DNA of 64,000 nt, from assembly GCA_030725715.1 (NCBI GenBank), contig JANRFG010000018.1:86599-150598 (forward strand), read 5' to 3'. Below, piece by piece: positions 349 through 53,283 of the stretch. The translations under genes and the position numbers were made by a program. Below the pieces are notes generated by a model. That model was not told the DNA's origin, did no database searches, and was given only the letters and a program-made list of their open reading frames with translations. Position 1 is the first letter of the stretch. The number at the start of each line of letters is the position of its first letter. This DNA comes from Opitutales bacterium. Lineage in GTDB: Bacteria; Verrucomicrobiota; Verrucomicrobiia; Opitutales; UBA953.

Positions 349-1743
349 TTAACCTAAGCAGGGGCCAAGCCAAGTCAACCGGAGAGCCCCCTTCGTCGGG
401 CCATGCAGGCGGGCGGATTCGGCCGGCGGCAGTCCGGGCACCCAAAGGATGACGGAGCCCGCCAAGACCACGGGCAGCGCCTCCCGCTTTTCAGCGGGGA
501 TTTTACGGTTGATGAGCAGGTCGGAAAGTTTGGCCGAGCCCGGCGCACCCAACGGCTGATAACGATCGCCGTCCACCCGTCCGCGCCAGACGAGCTGCCC
601 CGCCGGCGCGATGACGTAGGCTTCCCGGTCGGGCGAAATGTCACCCTTGGACAGACTGGCCCACAATGTCGCATCGACGTCGACAGTCTCGGCGAGAAGG
701 CCGCACTCATCATCGGGCACTCCGCAGGTGAGCCGACGTTCGGCGGCGCCGTAGGACATGGGCTCGCAGGGGACGCTCAGCGCTCCGGCGGCGACGCGCA
801 CGAGGCGACCGCGGACGGCGGAACGGGCATCGTGACCCGCCGCGATCGCCGCGGCCAAGGGAGCGAGGGACGATTCGCCCGGATCCGTGACTTCATGCGC
901 ATGCAGGAAGACGCGAAGCGCTTCCTGGATCAGGGCGGAAGGACGCCCCTGGAGCGCGGCGATGGGCATCGTGCCATCCGGACCGACCATGCAGCCGAGC
1001 TCGCGCGCCCACTGCGCCAGCGCGACCTGCGCCTCGCCGAGGATACGGGCAGAACGGGCGAAGCCTTCGGCATAACCTGCGCCCATCGCTTCGGTGCCGC
1101 CGGCGGAGAGCCAGGCGCGGACGCGGTTGCGGGCCGCAATCGGGAGGAGATTGGTGGCGTCTTCCCGCCAAGGAATTCCCGCAGTGCGTAGGCCCGCGAG
1201 CAGCGCCCGCTTGTCGATGCCCGCCTGGATCAACGGGCGCCAACGACGATGGCCGTCACGGAAAGACTGCAGCACGCGCGGGGCGGCGAGACCGGCGAGG
1301 CCCGCGCCGCGGGCGAGGCGCATCAGCGCGTTCTCGACGACGTCATCGAGATGGTGCGCGGTGCAGAGCAGTCCGTAGCCGAGGGCCACGCGCTGCTGCG
1401 CGAAGAACGCGTCGCGGCCCGCACGCAGTTCCGCTTCGGAAGCGATCCCCTGCCCTTCCCTCACTCCGACCGCGCACGGTACGGCGAGCGAAGCGCACAA
1501 GGCGGCGACGAAGCGGGCGTCCTCGGCCGACGCCTCACCGCGCACGCGATGATCGAAATGCAGGACGCGTAGCCTCGGTCGCAGAGCTTCGTCCGCCCAG
1601 AGCGCACAGAGCAGGTAGACCGAATCTGCGCCGCCGGAGACCGCGACGGCGACGGGGCCGGACGAGGCCGGAGCCGACGGCAGCCGCGGCAGCCGCTGGG
1701 CGGCCGCGCGCAAGGCGGCGGGACTGGTCAGGCTCATCGGCAC
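349..1743 (-). CDS. tilS: tRNA(Ile)-lysidine synthase TilS
   Basis: TilS attaches lysine to C34 of tRNA-Ile(CAU) with ATP, changing its decoding from AUG to AUA; it acts in the cytosol and is normally essential. The protein has the PP-loop ATP pyrophosphatase motif SGGADS at residues 36-41, followed by HFDHRVRGEAS and the GLLCTAHHLDDVVEN segment typical of the family. The C-terminal part (GRVDGDRYQPLG, then LSDLLINRKIP) matches the TilS C-terminal domain. At about 460 residues it has the usual length of the long form. The ORF opens with GTG at 1743; an ATG two codons later (1737) is an equally good start. ftsH follows 11 bases downstream, so the two are probably co-transcribed. Confidence 0.93.
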   Translation of the reverse strand: MPMSLTSPAALRAAAQRLPRLPSAPASSGPVAVAVSGGADSVYLLCALWADEALRPRLRVLHFDHRVRGEASAEDARFVAALCASLAVPCAVGVREGQGIASEAELRAGRDAFFAQQRVALGYGLLCTAHHLDDVVENALMRLARGAGLAGLAAPRVLQSFRDGHRRWRPLIQAGIDKRALLAGLRTAGIPWREDATNLLPIAARNRVRAWLSAGGTEAMGAGYAEGFARSARILGEAQVALAQWARELGCMVGPDGTMPIAALQGRPSALIQEALRVFLHAHEVTDPGESSLAPLAAAIAAGHDARSAVRGRLVRVAAGALSVPCEPMSYGAAERRLTCGVPDDECGLLAETVDVDATLWASLSKGDISPDREAYVIAPAGQLVWRGRVDGDRYQPLGAPGSAKLSDLLINRKIPAEKREALPVVLAGSVILWVPGLPPAESARLHGPTKGALRLTWLGPCLG

Positions 1744-1790
1744 GCGTTCAGCCTACGTCGCGCCGGCTCCCTGCCAATCCAAAGCGGGCC

Positions 1791-3059
1791 TCAGAAGGAC
1801 AGCGTGTCCTTGCCGTACCAGCGACGGAGCGCCTCAGGCACGCGCACGGTACCGTCGGCCTGGAGGTTGTTCTCCAGGATGGCGGCGAGGACGCGCGGCA
1901 GGCCGAGGCCGGAGCCGTTGAGGGTGTGGACGAACTCGGGCTTTCCGTCCTTCGGGCGGAAACGTATCCCCGCGCGACGGGCCTGGAAGTCCGTGAAATT
2001 GGAGCAGCTCGAGACTTCGAGCCAGCGCTTCTGGCCGCCGGCCCAGACTTCGAGGTCGTACTGCTTGCTGTGCGAGAAACCGATGTCGCCGGCGCAGATC
2101 ATCAGCACGCGGTAAGGGAGGTCCAGTTTCTGGAGCAGGCGCTCGGCGTCGCCGCGGAGCAGCTCGAGTTCCTCGAAGGACTTGTCCGGGTGCGTCCACT
2201 TAACGAGCTCGACCTTGTCGAACTGGTGCAGGCGGTTCAGGCCGCGCACGTGCGCGCCCCAGCTGCCGGCTTCACGGCGGAAGCACGGCGTGTAGCCGAC
2301 GCGCTTCACGGGCAGCGAGGCCTCGTCGAGGATCTCGTCGCGGAAGAAGTTCGTGACCGGCACCTCGGCCGTCGGGATGAGGTAGAAATCGTCGGTCTGC
2401 GCGTGGTACATCTGCCCTTCCTTGTCGGGCAGCTGCCCGGTGGCGGTGGCCGAAGCGGCGTTGACGAGCAACGGGGCGTGGACCTCGGTGTAGCCGTTGG
2501 CGCCGGCTTCTTCGAGGAAGTACTGGATCAGCGCGCGGACGAGGCGGGCCATGTCGCCCACGTAGAACGGGAAGCCCGCGCCGGTGACCTTCACGCCGCG
2601 CTCGAAGTCGATCGCCTTGTTGAACCAAGCGATGTCCCAGTGCGGCTTGGCCGCCGGGGAGATGAGCTTCGCGTGGTCGCCCCACTCGAGGACCACCTTG
2701 TTGTCGGCCTCGGTGCGGCCTTCGGGCACGGAATCGTGCGGGATGTTCGGGACGGAAAGCGCGACGGCCTTCATCTGCTCCTCGGCTTCGGTGACCTTCT
2801 TCTCGAGTTCCTTCACCTTGGCGGAAGCTGCCTTCATCTCGGCGACCTTGGCCTGGAATTCCGGCGAGCCCTTGGGCATCGCGGCCATCTCCTTGTTCGC
2901 GGCGTTCTGCGCGGAACGGGCGACCTCGAACTCGGCCACCGCGTGGCGGCGGGCTTCGTCGGCGGCCAGGACGGCGTCGAGGTCGACCTGGAACTTCTTC
3001 CGGGCGACGCCCTTGCGGACGAGGTCGATGTTTTCGCGGAGGAACTTGGAGTCCAGCAT
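1791..3059 (-). CDS. serS: Seryl-tRNA synthetase
   Basis: Class II aminoacyl-tRNA synthetase that charges tRNA-Ser (and tRNA-Sec where present). The start chosen is the ATG at 3059, giving MLDSKFLREN and 422 residues; the ORF track extends upstream, but that part is low-complexity and untypical. Residues 1-110 form the antiparallel coiled-coil arm (VAEMKAASAKVKELEKKVTEAEEQMK). The catalytic core follows, with motif 2 (CFRREAGSWGAHVRGLNRLHQFDKVE) and motif 3 (NGSGLGLPRVLAAILENN). The length equals typical bacterial SerRS. It lies between the zinc-ribbon membrane protein and tilS, all on the minus strand with short gaps. Confidence 0.96.
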   Translation of the reverse strand: MLDSKFLRENIDLVRKGVARKKFQVDLDAVLAADEARRHAVAEFEVARSAQNAANKEMAAMPKGSPEFQAKVAEMKAASAKVKELEKKVTEAEEQMKAVALSVPNIPHDSVPEGRTEADNKVVLEWGDHAKLISPAAKPHWDIAWFNKAIDFERGVKVTGAGFPFYVGDMARLVRALIQYFLEEAGANGYTEVHAPLLVNAASATATGQLPDKEGQMYHAQTDDFYLIPTAEVPVTNFFRDEILDEASLPVKRVGYTPCFRREAGSWGAHVRGLNRLHQFDKVELVKWTHPDKSFEELELLRGDAERLLQKLDLPYRVLMICAGDIGFSHSKQYDLEVWAGGQKRWLEVSSCSNFTDFQARRAGIRFRPKDGKPEFVHTLNGSGLGLPRVLAAILENNLQADGTVRVPEALRRWYGKDTLSF

Positions 3060-3102
3060 GGGCCGACTTTGCCCAATCCCCCCGCCCGAGGGCAACGGGG
3101 AA

Positions 3103-3780
3103 TTATCGCCCGCGCTGGATTCGGGCGGCCAGGAAGCGGGCCAACCAGAGCGCGTTCTCCCGGTCGACACCGGCGGCGCTCAGTCGCAGGTCCTTGGCTC
3201 CGTCGACCTTGAACTCGACCTGGAAGCTCGTGGAGTAGCGGTTGCGTCCGCGGCGCGTGGCTTCGGTGAGACGGCACGAACGGACGTCATGCCAAGGGGC
3301 TGACTGGGTACGATAGACCCCCAGGGCGCCGGTGCGGATCGAGAACTTGCCGCCCGCGAGCTCCACGATCGTGCGGCCGGCGACGGACATCACGGTCAGA
3401 CCGATGAGCGCGACCGAACCCACCAGGAAAGGCAGCCCGAAGAGCGACATCATCCAGTTGAACTCCCCCTTGGCGATCTGCGTGCCGTAGATGCCGCCGA
3501 GCGAGCCGCCGGCCCAGACGAGCGTGAACGGCACGAGGAAGATCGCGATGCAGCTGCGGGTCGACAGCGTCAGCCGGAAGCCGTCCATCGTCTCGACCAA
3601 GTCCACGCCCTTCGGCGGGGTCATCACCGGCACGATGTTCCGGTCGGCGAAAGGCACGGCGGCCTGACAAGCCTCCAGCGGGAAAGGCTTCTCGCAGAAC
3701 CGACAGACCGCGACGCCCTGGGCGGGCGCGAGGTCGGCCGCCTGGATCGGCAGGCCGCAATCAGGGCAGTGAAATTCCAC
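3103..3780 (-). CDS. Zinc-ribbon membrane protein of unknown function
   Basis: I do not recognise a named family. The protein (225 residues, GTG start at 3780) opens with a treble-clef/zinc-ribbon-like unit, CPDC (residues 5-8) and CRFC (about 26-29), so it probably binds one zinc ion. Two hydrophobic segments follow, CIAIFLVPFTLVWAGGSLGGIYG and LFGLPFLVGSVALIGLTVMSVAG, and then a soluble C-terminal domain (FSIRTGALGVYRTQSAPWHDVRSCRL) like the PH-type folds seen in small bacterial membrane proteins. The region before the start contains the ndk terminator, so it may have its own promoter. Whether it has a role linked to serS is unknown. Confidence 0.6.
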   Translation of the reverse strand: MEFHCPDCGLPIQAADLAPAQGVAVCRFCEKPFPLEACQAAVPFADRNIVPVMTPPKGVDLVETMDGFRLTLSTRSCIAIFLVPFTLVWAGGSLGGIYGTQIAKGEFNWMMSLFGLPFLVGSVALIGLTVMSVAGRTIVELAGGKFSIRTGALGVYRTQSAPWHDVRSCRLTEATRRGRNRYSTSFQVEFKVDGAKDLRLSAAGVDRENALWLARFLAARIQRGR

Positions 3781-3819
3781 GGAGGCAAATTGGCCGCGCC
3801 TGGGAAGACTGCCAAACAG

Positions 3820-3856
3820 ATAAGCCCCGCCGCGCGAACGGCGGGGCTTATTTTGC
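3820..3856 (-). terminator. Rho-independent terminator, ndk 3' end
   Basis: The inverted repeat AAGCCCCGCCG / CGGCGGGGCTT encloses a six-base loop and is T-rich on both flanks (TTATTTTGC on plus, TTATCTGTTT on minus). It lies just after the ndk stop codon and before the next minus-strand gene, so it most likely ends the ndk transcript. Confidence 0.7.
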
Positions 3857-3867
3857 TATGCTTTCGC

Positions 3868-4302
3868 TTAGACTCGGCTCGCCTCAGAGGCGAAGACTTC
3901 GTCAGGACGGAAGAAACGTCGGACCTCGGCGTCCGCGGCGGCGGGGCTGTCGGAGGCGTGGCAGACATTGCGCATCATCTCGGTGCCGAAATCGCCACGG
4001 ATGGTGCCCTTGGGGGCCACTTTGGAATTGGTCGGTCCGAGGAGTTCGCGGACGCGGGAGATGACGTTCTCGCCGACGAGGACGGCGACGATCACCGGAC
4101 GGGAGGACATGAAGGCCTCGATCTCCGGGTAGAAAGGCTTGTCGGCGACGTGGGCGTAATGCTCGCGGAGCTGGTCCGAGGTCAGACGGGTCATCTTACT
4201 GGCCTGGATGTCGAAGCCGGCGGCTTCGAAGCGAGCGAGGACCGTTCCGCAGAGGCGGCGCTCCATGCAGTCGGGCTTGAGAATGATGAGGGTCTTTTCC
4301 AT
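3868..4302 (-). CDS. ndk: Nucleoside diphosphate kinase
   Basis: Transfers the gamma phosphate from ATP to nucleoside diphosphates through a phosphohistidine intermediate, balancing NTP pools in the cytosol. The ATG at 4302 gives MEKTLIILKPDCMERR, the canonical Ndk start (144 residues); the upstream ORF extension is not conserved in style. The active-site histidine is in NVCHASDSPAAADAEVRRFF, corresponding to the family motif N-[IV]-[IV]-H-[GA]-S-D-S. The gene stands alone between ispF and a terminator. Its C-terminus (PDEVFASEASRV) is slightly longer than the minimal family member. Confidence 0.96.
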   Translation of the reverse strand: MEKTLIILKPDCMERRLCGTVLARFEAAGFDIQASKMTRLTSDQLREHYAHVADKPFYPEIEAFMSSRPVIVAVLVGENVISRVRELLGPTNSKVAPKGTIRGDFGTEMMRNVCHASDSPAAADAEVRRFFRPDEVFASEASRV

Positions 4303-4389
4303 AGGGAACCCTTCGGACTGAAGGGTCGTTAAGTCTTCGCTTTTAAGGCCGAAAAGACAAGCCCGAAGCAAAATTAGCCCCGAAACCGC

Positions 4390-4890
4390 TCAAAAACCCT
4401 TGGAAATCAGGCAAATAGCCTGCACCGCCAAGGCCTTACCCTGCCCGATCGAGTCCATTCCTTCGTTGGTCGTGGCCTTGATCCCCACCTGAGAGGCGGA
4501 AATTCCGATGATTTCGGCGACTTTGGCCTTCATGGCGTCGACGTGCGCCATGACCTTCGGGCGCTCACCGATGATCACGATGTCGACGTTGCCGACCACC
4601 CAGCCGCCCTGCCCCTTGGCCTCGGCGACGGCCTTCTTCACGATCACGGCGGAATCCAATCCTTTGAGGGAGGCGTCCGTGTTCGGGAAATAATGACCGA
4701 TGTCACGCAGGCCGGCGGCGCCCAGGATCGCGTCGGCGACGGCATGCAGCAGCACGTCGGCATCCGAATGCCCCTCCGGGCCGACCGGCGACGGGATGTT
4801 CACCCCGCCCAGGATGCACGGACGACCGGCGACCAGCGGGTGAATGTCATACCCGAGACCGACACGGAAGGCTGGCAGGGGCTGGCTCAT
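4390..4890 (-). CDS. ispF: 2-C-methyl-D-erythritol 2,4-cyclodiphosphate synthase
   Basis: Fifth step of the MEP isoprenoid pathway: converts CDP-ME 2-phosphate to MEcPP with release of CMP, as a zinc-dependent trimer. Visible signatures are GLGYDIHPL near the N-terminus (zinc-binding Asp and His), GGVNIPSPVGPEGHSDADVLLHA, and the C-terminal KATTNEGMDSIGQGKALAVQAI. Length (166 residues) is normal. ispD, often adjacent or fused, is not next to it. The gene ends 87 bases before the ndk start and is followed upstream by the divergently oriented tRNA-Cys. Confidence 0.96.
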   Translation of the reverse strand: MSQPLPAFRVGLGYDIHPLVAGRPCILGGVNIPSPVGPEGHSDADVLLHAVADAILGAAGLRDIGHYFPNTDASLKGLDSAVIVKKAVAEAKGQGGWVVGNVDIVIIGERPKVMAHVDAMKAKVAEIIGISASQVGIKATTNEGMDSIGQGKALAVQAICLISKGF

Positions 4891-4942
4891 GGCTCGTTAT
4901 TAGGCGAGAAAACGCCCAAAGGGAAGCCCTTGCACAAAACCC

Positions 4943-4971
4943 TTGAAACGCCCTCCCCGAGGAGGCATTTT
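4943..4971 (+). promoter_or_regulatory. Candidate sigma-70 type promoter of tRNA-Cys
   Basis: TTGAAA (4943-4948) and CATTTT (4966-4971) are separated by 17 bases. The -10 element ends exactly 20 bases before the tRNA, the same geometry as the candidate promoter of tRNA-Asp in this window. The -10 match is weak, so this is an inference. Confidence 0.45.
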
Positions 4972-4990
4972 GTAGGCCTGTCAGTCTTCA

Positions 4991-5065
4991 GGCGCGGTAG
5001 CCAAGTGGTAAGGCCGGGCTCTGCAAAAGCCCCATGCGTCGGTTCAATTCCGACCCGCGCCTCCA
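4991..5065 (+). tRNA. tRNA-Cys (anticodon GCA)
   Basis: A full cloverleaf can be drawn. The acceptor stem GGCGCGG pairs with CCGCGCC, the anticodon stem-loop is GGGCT-CTGCAAA-AGCCC (anticodon GCA), and the T-arm is GTCGG-TTCAATT-CCGAC. The discriminator base is T (U73), the identity element for cysteine, and CCA is encoded. Confidence 0.97.
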
Positions 5066-5073
5066 GTTTAAAC

Positions 5074-5107
5074 AAGAAGGGCGTCCCGAACCGGGACGCC
5101 CTTCTTC
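5074..5107. terminator. Bidirectional terminator between tRNA-Cys and argG
   Basis: The perfect inverted repeat AAGAAGGGCGTCCC / GGGACGCCCTTCTT (14-bp stem, five-base loop) sits between the convergent tRNA-Cys and argG. It can end both transcripts; the T content at each side comes from the AAGAAG/CTTCTT arms. Confidence 0.75.
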
Positions 5108-5126
5108 TTGATCGGTCAGGCTGACC

Positions 5127-6383
<1,257 letters not shown>

Positions 6384-6401
6384 GGTAGTGGTATGGGAAA
6401 A

Positions 6402-7349
6402 TCAGCCGCGGTGGGCGGCGAGGTGCGCGAGGATGGCCTTCTGCACGTGCAGACGGTTCTCGGCTTGGTCGAAGATGATGCTCTGCTTGCTCGCGAGCAC
6501 TTCGGCGGAGACTTCCTCGCCGGGGTGGGCCGGGAGGCAGTGCATGAAATAGGCGGAGGGCTTGGCCAGGGACATCAGCTGCGCGTTGACCTGGTAAGGC
6601 TGCATGGTGCGCAGGCGTTCGGCCTTCTCGGCCTCCATGCCCATGCTCACCCAGACGTCGGTGTAGACCATGTCGGCGCCCTTGACGGCGGCGGCGGGGT
6701 CGGTCGAGAAGGTGAAGGACTCGGCGAGTCCGTCCTTCTTCAGCTGGGCGCGGACCTCGGCGCCGGGCTCATGACCGGCAGGGCCGGCAAGGGCGATCTC
6801 GACGCCGAGAGCGGCGCCGCCGAGCACGAACGAGTTCGCCATGTTGCAGGCGGTGTCGCCGAGGAAGGCGACCTTCTTGCCCTTGAGCGAAGCGGCATAC
6901 TGTTCCGGACGGCCGGGCGCGAAGCGCTCCGCCAGCGTGAACATGTCCGTCATGAACTGGCACGGATGCAGGAAGTCGGACAGCGCGTTGACGACCGGCA
7001 TCGTGCCGCAGCGGGCGAACTCCTCGAGCAGGGCGTGCTCGTGGCAGCGGATGACCATGCCGTGCAGGTAACGGGACAGGACGCGCGCGGTGTCGGCGAC
7101 GGTCTCGCCGCGGGAGAGCTGCAGGTCGTCGGCGTTGAGCATCACCGGCTGGCCGCCGAGCTCATGGACGCCGACCTGGAAGGAGACGCGGGTGCGGGTG
7201 CTCTTCTTGAAGAACATCAGGCCCCAGGACTGGTGCGCGAGGGCGGCGCCGGCGGACCGGCCGCGACCGGCCTTGAGGGCCGCGGCGGCGGCGAAGACCT
7301 GGGCCGTTTCGGCTGGGCTCAGGTCGGTCTCCTTCAGGAAATGACGCAT
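6402..7349 (-). CDS. argF: Ornithine carbamoyltransferase
   Basis: Makes citrulline from ornithine and carbamoyl phosphate. The ATG at 7349 gives MRHFLKETDLSPAETAQVF, the usual short N-terminus (315 residues); the longer ORF start would run into the intergenic spacer after argD. The carbamoyl-phosphate motif appears as KKSTRTRVSF (family S-T-R-T-R), the ornithine-side segment as HPCQFMTDMFTL (family HPxQ), and the C-terminal substrate loop as HCLPAHPGEEV. A 68-base spacer separates it from argD, the longest gap in the cluster, so an internal promoter is possible. Confidence 0.96.
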   Translation of the reverse strand: MRHFLKETDLSPAETAQVFAAAAALKAGRGRSAGAALAHQSWGLMFFKKSTRTRVSFQVGVHELGGQPVMLNADDLQLSRGETVADTARVLSRYLHGMVIRCHEHALLEEFARCGTMPVVNALSDFLHPCQFMTDMFTLAERFAPGRPEQYAASLKGKKVAFLGDTACNMANSFVLGGAALGVEIALAGPAGHEPGAEVRAQLKKDGLAESFTFSTDPAAAVKGADMVYTDVWVSMGMEAEKAERLRTMQPYQVNAQLMSLAKPSAYFMHCLPAHPGEEVSAEVLASKQSIIFDQAENRLHVQKAILAHLAAHRG

Positions 7350-7417
7350 CTCGGAAAGCGTTCGAACATAGCCCTGCCGAACCGTTTGGACAGCGGAAAA
7401 TAGGGGCGGAAAACCGC

Positions 7418-8637
<1,220 letters not shown>

Positions 8638-51612: not shown

Positions 51613-52017
51613 TCACTCGTCACTCCCCTGCCCGCCCCCGTTGACAGGCAGTTCACCCGGCATGGCCACATGGTAGGCCATGACCATCCAGCAGAGCATG
51701 ACGGGGTAGATCAGGACGATGAAGCCGAAGGTGCCGAAGATGCCCAGCAGGACGCCGGCCTTCACGGAAAGGACCTTCATCGCCACCAGGAAACTGATCG
51801 GGATGATGATGAAGAGGATCGCGGCGACGTAGCCGATGGAGGTCGTGCCGGAGTAGATCCCAGCCGAGCGAGCGAGGTCCATGCCACAGGCGGAACAGGC
51901 CTTGCCCAGGCGGAACCAAGAAGCCAGGAGGCCACGCTTGCCGCAGTTGGGACAGTGGCACAGCAAGCCGCGGGCGATGATGTCGCCGCGCGTGACTTTG
52001 AGCTCCGGTTCGTCCAT
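51613..52017 (-). CDS. DUF983 family membrane protein with zinc-ribbon N-terminus
   Basis: A 134-residue protein. The N-terminal cytosolic part has CHCPNCGKRGLLASWFRLGKACSACGMDLARSAG, with two CxxC pairs that probably bind zinc (family pattern CPxCGxGxLF...CxxCG). Two membrane helices follow (GYVAAILFIIIPISFLVAMKVL and LLGIFGTFGFIVLIYPVMLCWMVMAYHVAMP). DUF983 has no established function; proteobacterial members are often near cytochrome oxidase genes, which is not the case here. It lies 51 bases upstream of metF on the same strand. Confidence 0.85.
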   Translation of the reverse strand: MDEPELKVTRGDIIARGLLCHCPNCGKRGLLASWFRLGKACSACGMDLARSAGIYSGTTSIGYVAAILFIIIPISFLVAMKVLSVKAGVLLGIFGTFGFIVLIYPVMLCWMVMAYHVAMPGELPVNGGGQGSDE

Positions 52018-52067
52018 CCCGACAGCGTCCTCACGCCCGCCCGGAAGACAAGCCCCGCCTTCTTCTT

Positions 52068-52141
52068 GGTAGGGTCAGCACTGCGTGCTGACCTAGTCGT
52101 ATCGCCCTTACCCTAGGTCAGCACGCAGCGCTGACCCTACC
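52068..52141. repeat. REPIN-like double palindrome with GTAG head
   Basis: GGTAGGGTCAGCACTGCGTGCTGACCT (52068-52094) and its reverse complement with one mismatch (AGGTCAGCACGCAGCGCTGACCCTACC, 52115-52141) flank a 20-base loop. Each arm is itself a palindrome, GTCAGCAC-TGC-GTGCTGAC, preceded by GTAG, the tetranucleotide head typical of RAYT-type REP elements. The layout matches a REPIN (two inverted REPs). It occupies the gap between the DUF983 gene and the DUF5009 gene. No RAYT transposase is in the window. Confidence 0.8.
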
Positions 52142-52158
52142 TAAACCCATGCCGCAGC

Positions 52159-53283
52159 TCACACCCTCAGGAAAATCCGCTGCCGCTTGAGGAACCAGAA
52201 GAGCAGCCACTTCACGGCGAAGATACCGGTGACGAGCACCACCGAGGCCACAGCCGGAGGGAAGGCCCGGGCGAGACCGCCGAACAAGGCCTGTCCGGTG
52301 AAGTCGAAGCTGACGAACTTACCCGACATGTAGATGAGGACGGAATTCATTCCGATCACGGCGAAGAAAGCGCCGAAGCCGCGCGCCCAACCGCGGACAT
52401 CGATGACCCAATAGAACGAAGCCAAGAGCAGGCTGGCCCAGCCGCAGGTCCAGAGCACAAAGGAACTGGTCCACAGGTTCTTGTTCAGCGGGAAGACGAA
52501 GCTCCAGAGTCCGCCGACGGCGAGCAGCGCGAGCCCCGCCACGGCCAAGCCGGCGGCTTTACGGTCGCCGGAGACCTCCTCCGCGGAACGTCGCAGCCAC
52601 AATCCAGCCAGGATGCCGAGCAAGGCGTTACCGATCGCCGGCAGGACCGCGAGCAGGCCTTCCGGATCGTGGATGCCTTTGTGGAGTTTACCCGGCAGCA
52701 GGAGGCGGTCGACGTAGCTGGCGAAGTTCCCCTCCATCGTCAAATCCCCTGCGGCGAAGCCGGGCGCATGACCGAAAGACATGACCGCCCAGTAACCGAG
52801 CAGGATACCGGCCAGCCAATACAAGAGCCTTTTCGGGGTCTCGTAATTGAATACGAAGAGGAGCTGGGCGAACATGCCCGCGAGGCCGATGCGCCCGAGC
52901 ACGCTACCGAGGCGCATGTTCTCCAGGCCCTTCCACTGGAGGCCGTTGTTATAAATGACGCCGAGCAGGACGAGGATCAGGCCACGCTGGATGACCTTGC
53001 GGATGACTTCGCTCCGGGCGCCTTCGGTCAGACGACGCGTCAGCGAATACGGCGTCGAGACGCCGGCCATGAAGAGGAAGAGCGGGAAGATGAGGTCGTA
53101 AGGCAGGAAGCCGTGCCACTCAACATGCTTCAGCTGGCTGTCAATCGCGCCGAGCCAGCCCCACTCGGTCAGCTTGAAGAGCGCCAGCAGGATGCCATGT
53201 CCGCCGACGATCCAGAACAGGTCGAAGCCGCGCAGGGCGTCGAGCGAGAGCAGCCGTTCAGACTTCGGGGTAGGCGCCTCCAT
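52159..53283 (-). CDS. DUF5009/HGSNAT-like membrane acyltransferase
   Basis: A 374-residue multi-pass protein beginning SERLLSLDALRGFDLFWIVGGHGILLALFKL, the signature DALRGFD of the heparan-alpha-glucosaminide N-acetyltransferase (HGSNAT/DUF5009, YeiB/NagX-like) group. It has about ten hydrophobic helices and a short charged C-terminus (KRQRIFLRV). The conserved HGFLPYDLIFPLFLFMAGVSTPYSL loop carries the probable catalytic His. HGSNAT-like enzymes move acetyl groups across membranes to amino sugars, so a role in cell-envelope or glycosaminoglycan sugar modification is possible; substrate unknown. Confidence 0.75.
   Translation of the reverse strand: MEAPTPKSERLLSLDALRGFDLFWIVGGHGILLALFKLTEWGWLGAIDSQLKHVEWHGFLPYDLIFPLFLFMAGVSTPYSLTRRLTEGARSEVIRKVIQRGLILVLLGVIYNNGLQWKGLENMRLGSVLGRIGLAGMFAQLLFVFNYETPKRLLYWLAGILLGYWAVMSFGHAPGFAAGDLTMEGNFASYVDRLLLPGKLHKGIHDPEGLLAVLPAIGNALLGILAGLWLRRSAEEVSGDRKAAGLAVAGLALLAVGGLWSFVFPLNKNLWTSSFVLWTCGWASLLLASFYWVIDVRGWARGFGAFFAVIGMNSVLIYMSGKFVSFDFTGQALFGGLARAFPPAVASVVLVTGIFAVKWLLFWFLKRQRIFLRV

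Follow-up and report, generated by a model that had tools for sequence, protein, structure and literature searches.

The REP transposase TnpAREP cuts single-stranded DNA at CT or CA, next to hairpins that have a GTAG tag (PMC8266576). Pseudomonads and stenotrophomonads have been reported to contain REP classes that are abundant although the matching RAYT is missing, and published REP classes often have no resident cognate RAYT (PMC3686654). In Verrucomicrobia, Opitutus terrae was reported in 2013 to be rich in GTAG repeats (PMC3733652); the earlier note on the DNA analysed here, which named Verrucomicrobia correctly (the source belongs to the Opitutae), was therefore only partly right in holding such elements to be little studied in this phylum. 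The analysed stretch, called the window, comprises 64,000 nucleotides (G000:C18:86599-150598, G000 being the genome of the window). It holds an element that is almost certainly a REP doublet (a REPIN, in which two GTAG-headed REPs stand tail to tail), a non-autonomous mobile repeat spread by a RAYT. This reading is based on the anatomy of the element, its dispersed extragenic copies, the polymorphism of its site, the RAYTs that accompany exactly these REPs in relatives, and the parallel divergence of RAYTs and REPs. The RAYT, a tyrosine transposase of the Y1/HUH type, would carry such a doublet to new genomic sites in the form of a single-stranded DNA hairpin.

The doublet occupies window positions 52068-52141, exactly as given in the earlier note, and its components are listed in Table 1. 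The two inverted arms, the single mismatch between them and the GTAG-headed palindrome in each arm had all been recognised correctly, with an arm length of 27 nt and a loop of 20 nt, which were measured here as 29 nt and 16 nt. The GGTAG heads form the outer edges of the doublet, and the TAG tails face each other across the spacer. GTAG stands at the 5' foot of the palindrome in both arms, the place at which REPs have GTAG (or GGAG). Each arm is a hairpin by itself, although the substituted one retains only 8 pairs. When folded as DNA, arm 1 reached -9.9 kcal/mol (z -4.3) and the mismatched arm -8.3 kcal/mol (z -3.1), with either none or three of 200 shuffles as stable as the single arm. For the whole doublet, the values were -34 to -38 kcal/mol for DNA, with z about -12 on either strand, and -65 kcal/mol (z -12) for RNA. 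The 19-mer core, with at most 3 mismatches, has three matches in the window, against 0.03 expected by chance. A known structured RNA was also considered and discarded, as Rfam returned only sub-threshold matches to eukaryotic miRNA precursors, which are expected for any long hairpin.

Table 1. Positions of the doublet, its flanking genes and the RAYT genes of the same genome (window positions, or contig and position where a contig is named)
Feature	Position	Strand	Description
REP arm 1, type C	52068..52096	+	GGTAGGGTCAGCACTGCGTGCTGACCTAG; GGTAG head, 9-bp stem GGTCAGCAC/GTGCTGACC, loop TGC, tail TAG
Spacer (loop) between the two REPs	52097..52112		16 nt; TCGTATCGCCCTTACC
REP arm 2, type C with one substitution (GTCAGCGC)	52113..52141	-	GGTAGGGTCAGCGCTGCGTGCTGACCTAG; as read along the window, CTAGGTCAGCACGCAGCGCTGACCCTACC
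Intergenic region holding the doublet	52018..52158		141 nt
Downstream gene	51613..52017	-	134-aa predicted membrane protein, two CxxC pairs; no Pfam family above cut-off
Upstream gene	52159..53283	-	374-aa multi-pass membrane protein; DUF5009 matched weakly, under its cut-off
RAYT A	C27:3925-4416	-	163 aa; NCBIfam, Pfam and structure matches
Inverted type-A REPs flanking RAYT A	C27:3900-3927 and C27:4465-4492
RAYT E	C16:42777-43232	+	151 aa; flanked by type E/E2 REPs

The genome of the window (1.93 Mb in 37 contigs, 94.9% complete) was read whole in stretches. The 19-nt core of type C has 18 exact copies in it, and its reversed control has none at up to 3 mismatches. The broader pattern GGTAGGGNNNGCACNNCGTGCNNNCCTA was found 57 times and its reversed control not at all; REP sequences of this type are repeated across the genome in both orientations, and their stem versions keep the pairing by matched changes (GTCAGC/GCTGAC, GTCGGC/GCCGAC, GGCAGC/GCTGCC, GACAGC/GCTGTC). 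GGTAGGG occurs 440 times, compared with about 103 expected. A strong palindrome follows GGTAG in 153 of 2,544 cases (6%), whereas nine control pentamers (926-7,440 occurrences) gave 3-20 such cases, under 1%; for GCTAG and CTAGG, two controls overlapping the CCTAG tail, the counts were 18 and 52. A census in which families were defined after inspection and up to four mismatches were allowed yielded about 213 palindromes headed by GGTAG, which fall into roughly 15 families by stem. The large ones are A (GACAGCACcac) with 43 members, D (GTCGGGACcgc) with 34, M with 23 and C, the type of the window, with 20; these are accompanied by E2 (19), N (18), B (13), O (12), C2, a near variant of C (10), and smaller ones. 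The midpoints of 196 of the 213 REPs (92%) fall outside genes predicted with a home-made gene caller, at a coding density of 86%. Copies of the element and of its sister types are thus many, dispersed and mostly extragenic in this genome, which the earlier note had named as one part of a confirmation.

Neighbouring REPs within 120 nt are arranged tail to tail in 46 cases, directly in 60 and head to head in 3. The tail-to-tail arrangement far exceeds the head-to-head one, but direct neighbours and single REPs are commoner. For type C, only four C-C pairs and one C-C2 pair were counted within that distance; most copies are thus single or belong to direct arrays, and the moving unit may be something other than the doublet. 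Several other arrangements were recorded in the same genome. Heterotypic direct arrays (C2 then B; D then A) keep a constant gap of 13-14 nt between unrelated stems and recur at different loci (G000:C15:88826-88891, C15:99300-99365, C5:37177-37238, C28:19823-19885). The E2 and O palindromes start with GGTAG from one end and, read on the opposite strand, with GGAG from the other, and E2 is often paired with O (for example, C2:38844-38881 and C32:23106); versions headed by GGAG flank the related RAYTs L235 and L237. A 7-nt tandem array includes AGCGGTTGGCGG, which is present 58 times, often beside REPs (e.g., C1:32781, C2:41992, C8:19898), and GGGGTAG arrays, another heptamer family, are found in 30 places.

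Two RAYT genes, of types A and E, are present in this genome (Table 1). Pfam Y1_Tnp alone found only one of them, and the second came from the NCBIfam profile. RAYT A matches NCBIfam REP_Tyr_transpos with an E value of 6e-20 (71.6 bits vs a cut-off of 80); in Pfam Y1_Tnp it falls just below the cut-off and RAYT C above it. The closest solved structure to RAYT A is TnpArep 4ER8 (E 4.5e-10), and the alignment to it retains the HUH motif (HLH) and the tyrosine at the Y115 position. The motifs MPDHLH and xY[VI]xxNPVRAG are invariant in the RAYTs, so that both the HUH motif and the catalytic tyrosine are in place. The idea that RAYT E is without a catalytic tyrosine was dropped, since the alignment with 4ER8 places this residue in DYIYINP, where it is conserved in all. 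A RAYT flanked by type-C REPs was not found in the 37 contigs of this 94.9% complete assembly.

Such a gene is present in close relatives. In G002, G007, G015 and G039, all of the same genus, a type-C RAYT lies between C/C2 doublets on both sides, and in G015 (Opitutae bacterium BS6) these doublets have spacers of 15-16 nt, as in the window. The search for a RAYT flanked by the same REP, suggested in the earlier note, thus failed in the genome of the window and succeeded in four relatives, which supports its proposal of an inverted GTAG-headed doublet moved by a RAYT. The type-C RAYTs were at one point taken for pseudogenes, which was abandoned: the stop in G002 and G015 is the natural protein end, and only the G007 gene has one premature TAG. 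Types A, B, C, E, G and H each form a monophyletic RAYT clade (support at least 0.95) with its own flanking REP, and RAYTs for types D and M are present elsewhere in the genus. Among 66 RAYTs with REPs on both sides, taken from many Verrucomicrobiota and a small number of other organisms, the distance between proteins correlated with that between their flanking REPs (r = 0.60; reached in 0 of 2000 permutations). Near-identical REPs accompanied 92% of the RAYT pairs less than 20% apart and none of those more than 50% apart. Because related proteins share ancestry, the correlation shows that RAYTs and REPs are inherited together and diverge in parallel; taken alone, it does not demonstrate specificity. 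The RAYT loci of one type are mostly syntenic. Nevertheless, the type-B cassette of G002 has a locus of its own, and its homology, about 575 nt long, runs from REP to REP; the type-A RAYT of G009 and the type-C RAYT of G015 also occupy loci different from those of their kin; therefore, judging from these sequence comparisons, REP-RAYT-REP cassettes appear to have moved too. The G002 unit (G002:C69, L154:1457-2031; 575 nt) was compared with L153, L155, L165 and L221, homology being confined to the unit, and it adjoins a truncated type-A REP head. GCAC-core REPs were found in 22 of 38 genomes, G000 included, all belonging to one uncultured genus of the Opitutae (Verrucomicrobiota), many members of which come from lakes, and in none of the 13 other genera of the order (14 sampled, 38 genomes), in agreement with the suggestion of a lineage-specific family.

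Exact type-C/C2 copies are present in 30 of the 41 genomes of the genus, and the type-C RAYT was detected in 4 of 41. At least five such copies were counted in 16 genomes, and 13 of these, including G053 with its about ten contigs, are without a detected type-C RAYT. Because REPs sit at several contig ends of G000, its type-C RAYT possibly lies in an assembly gap. The type-C population of this genome would thus have outlived its transposase or become separated from it in the assembly. Since published REP classes often lack a resident RAYT (PMC3686654), the missing gene does not exclude membership among REPs/REPINs. Alternatively, the type-C REPs of G000 might be moved in trans by the type-A RAYT of C27, in which case there would be no real orphaning. 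This idea starts from the GCAC...GTGC stem elements and the GGTAG head common to types C and A, and it would explain why type C is as intact as type A (18 of 20 vs 37 of 43 exact copies) in a genome with only RAYTs A and E, and why it is common in the 13 genomes mentioned above. It is nonetheless unlikely: the RAYT clades are flanked strictly by their own REP types, REP recognition depends on both loop and stem (PMC8266576) while the loops differ (TGC in C vs CAC in A), and a recent loss or an assembly gap accounts for the intactness equally well.

Returning to the type-C RAYT, this protein or its ancestor may have placed the copy in the window through a cut in single-stranded DNA adjoining the hairpin and its GTAG, by analogy with characterised RAYTs, which cut at CT. 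The motif TG..TC, with a background of about 0.2%, is found in G000 at 9-4 nt 5' of GTAG in 10 of the 43 type-A copies, 7 of the 12 type-B copies and 5 of the 29 type-C/C2 copies. It also occupies the six positions that start 5 nt past the stem core in 10 of the 29 type-C/C2 copies. These positions may be the cut-and-join sites, and the insertion of one REP at the tail of another would produce direct arrays with gaps of 13-14 nt. The 5' flank of the window copy has no TG..TC motif, though it is seen at many copies. A wider picture can be drawn tentatively, and it is more doubtful than the identity of the element: about ten co-diversified RAYT/REP pairs with quick turnover may exist in one freshwater Opitutae genus, with cognate RAYTs patchy and rare and orphan classes that are pristine and insert side by side in a fixed register, possibly because the 3' tail of a REP (CTAGYTGNNTCG) attracts the insertion of further REPs or because several classes are moved by a single RAYT.

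The doublet lies between two genes that are conserved neighbours across the genus, and both encode predicted membrane proteins, as the first reading of the DNA had it. The syntenic site was compared in 17 relatives. Twelve of them have neither a REP nor an insert there, and their intergenic region measures 35-54 nt. In G023, a doublet is present and the region is 141 nt long, as in G000; its two perfect arms and the part of the G000 loop that it retains (CGATACGA) indicate that the two doublets are probably orthologous, although their loops differ in part. In G015 the site is occupied by two REPs of other types, and G009, G016 and G022 have an insert of 820-880 nt unrelated to REPs. The doublet is thus present in some relatives and absent from others, and this polymorphism suggests that it is mobile. 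The two-gene tree gives weak support around G000 (0.83) and places the empty G011 and G003 inside the filled group, so the order in which the doublet was gained or lost does not follow from it. The REP may have been spread by a RAYT and later co-opted by the host for mRNA stabilisation or processing or for protein binding, as reported for enterobacterial BIMEs. The extragenic position and the retention at the same site in G000 and G023 are in line with this, but most relatives do without the doublet, and the perfect arms of G023 stand against the mismatched ones of G000, with loops that differ in part; co-option is therefore somewhat less probable still than mobilisation in trans. If a RAYT spread the doublet, any effect on its neighbours, for instance a stabilised mRNA between the two co-directional genes, would be of secondary importance. 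That the doublet is a terminator or attenuator of transcription, palindromic by coincidence, is very improbable, for despite the very stable RNA hairpin just 3' of a stop codon between co-directional genes, no T-run follows the stem as it does the GC-rich hairpin of an intrinsic terminator, the terminator scan does not report the doublet, most syntenic sites are without it and the sequence is repeated genome-wide in both orientations. A terminator shared by every relative, which the earlier note had named as evidence against its reading, did not appear; the site is variable among relatives, which makes the doublet a polymorphism of the insertion type rather than a conserved terminator.

The inserts at this site in G009, G016 and G022 (L201, L202, L203) carry PF05635 ORFs (23S rRNA-intervening four-helix-bundle protein, E 5e-29) between inverted arrays of short tandem units, and the same organisation is seen at L322-L341, including one locus in the genome of the window (G000:C18:156055-156402, L340). 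The units differ by ORF: the 11-mer GAGTCGGGGAA, the 12-mers AGAGTCGAGGGT and GAGGACTGAATT, the 8-mer AGTTGACA, and the 7-mers GCGGTTG and ACGGAGT. The GCGGTT unit, also that of the AGCGGTTGGCGG arrays, flanks PF05635 ORFs in G000 and relatives. In 20 of 20 loci, the flanks share more 7-mers inverted than direct. By analogy, these ORFs and arrays resemble a second REP-like system, a protein plus its cognate repeat, and a brief literature search found no publication on such a pairing.

Summarizing, the results support well a REP class that is new and whose cognate RAYT exists in this genus, and the repeats and transposases show unusually clear family relations. It is not a new kind of element, because REPs of Verrucomicrobia (Opitutus terrae) and orphan REP classes have already been published. 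The genus offers an unstudied and well-sampled natural series of RAYT/REP pairs outside the gammaproteobacteria. As the RAYT clade predicts the REP stem within one genus, the stem-reading residues could be mapped by comparison, and the many genomes with pristine REP classes and no detected cognate RAYT bear on the question whether the persistence of a REP population depends on a resident RAYT. The GTAG-headed REPs and REPINs described in Pseudomonas fluorescens and in Stenotrophomonas (Bertels and Rainey 2011, PMC3116915; Nunvar 2013, PMC3686654) similarly have a GTAG head, a short perfect palindrome and tail-to-tail doublets, with several classes per genome, one class per RAYT lineage, and classes over-represented where the cognate RAYT is missing. 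Type C differs from them in its GGTAGGG head, CCTAG tail and stem sequences, and the present genome in having tens rather than hundreds of copies per class and many heterotypic direct arrays in a register of roughly 38 bp. The TnpAREP/REPtron of E. coli (PDB 4ER8; PMC8266576) shares a homologous transposase with the HUH motif and the Y115-equivalent tyrosine, as well as the GTAG head; here, however, the stems are perfect and not bulged, the proteins have about 147-163 aa, and one REP or one doublet stands on each side of the RAYT. The GTAG repeats of Opitutus terrae (PMC3733652), compared by description and not by stem sequence, have in common with the present ones the phylum and class, GTAG-tagged stem-loops and dimers, whereas the families described here are found only in one uncultured freshwater genus of the Opitutae.
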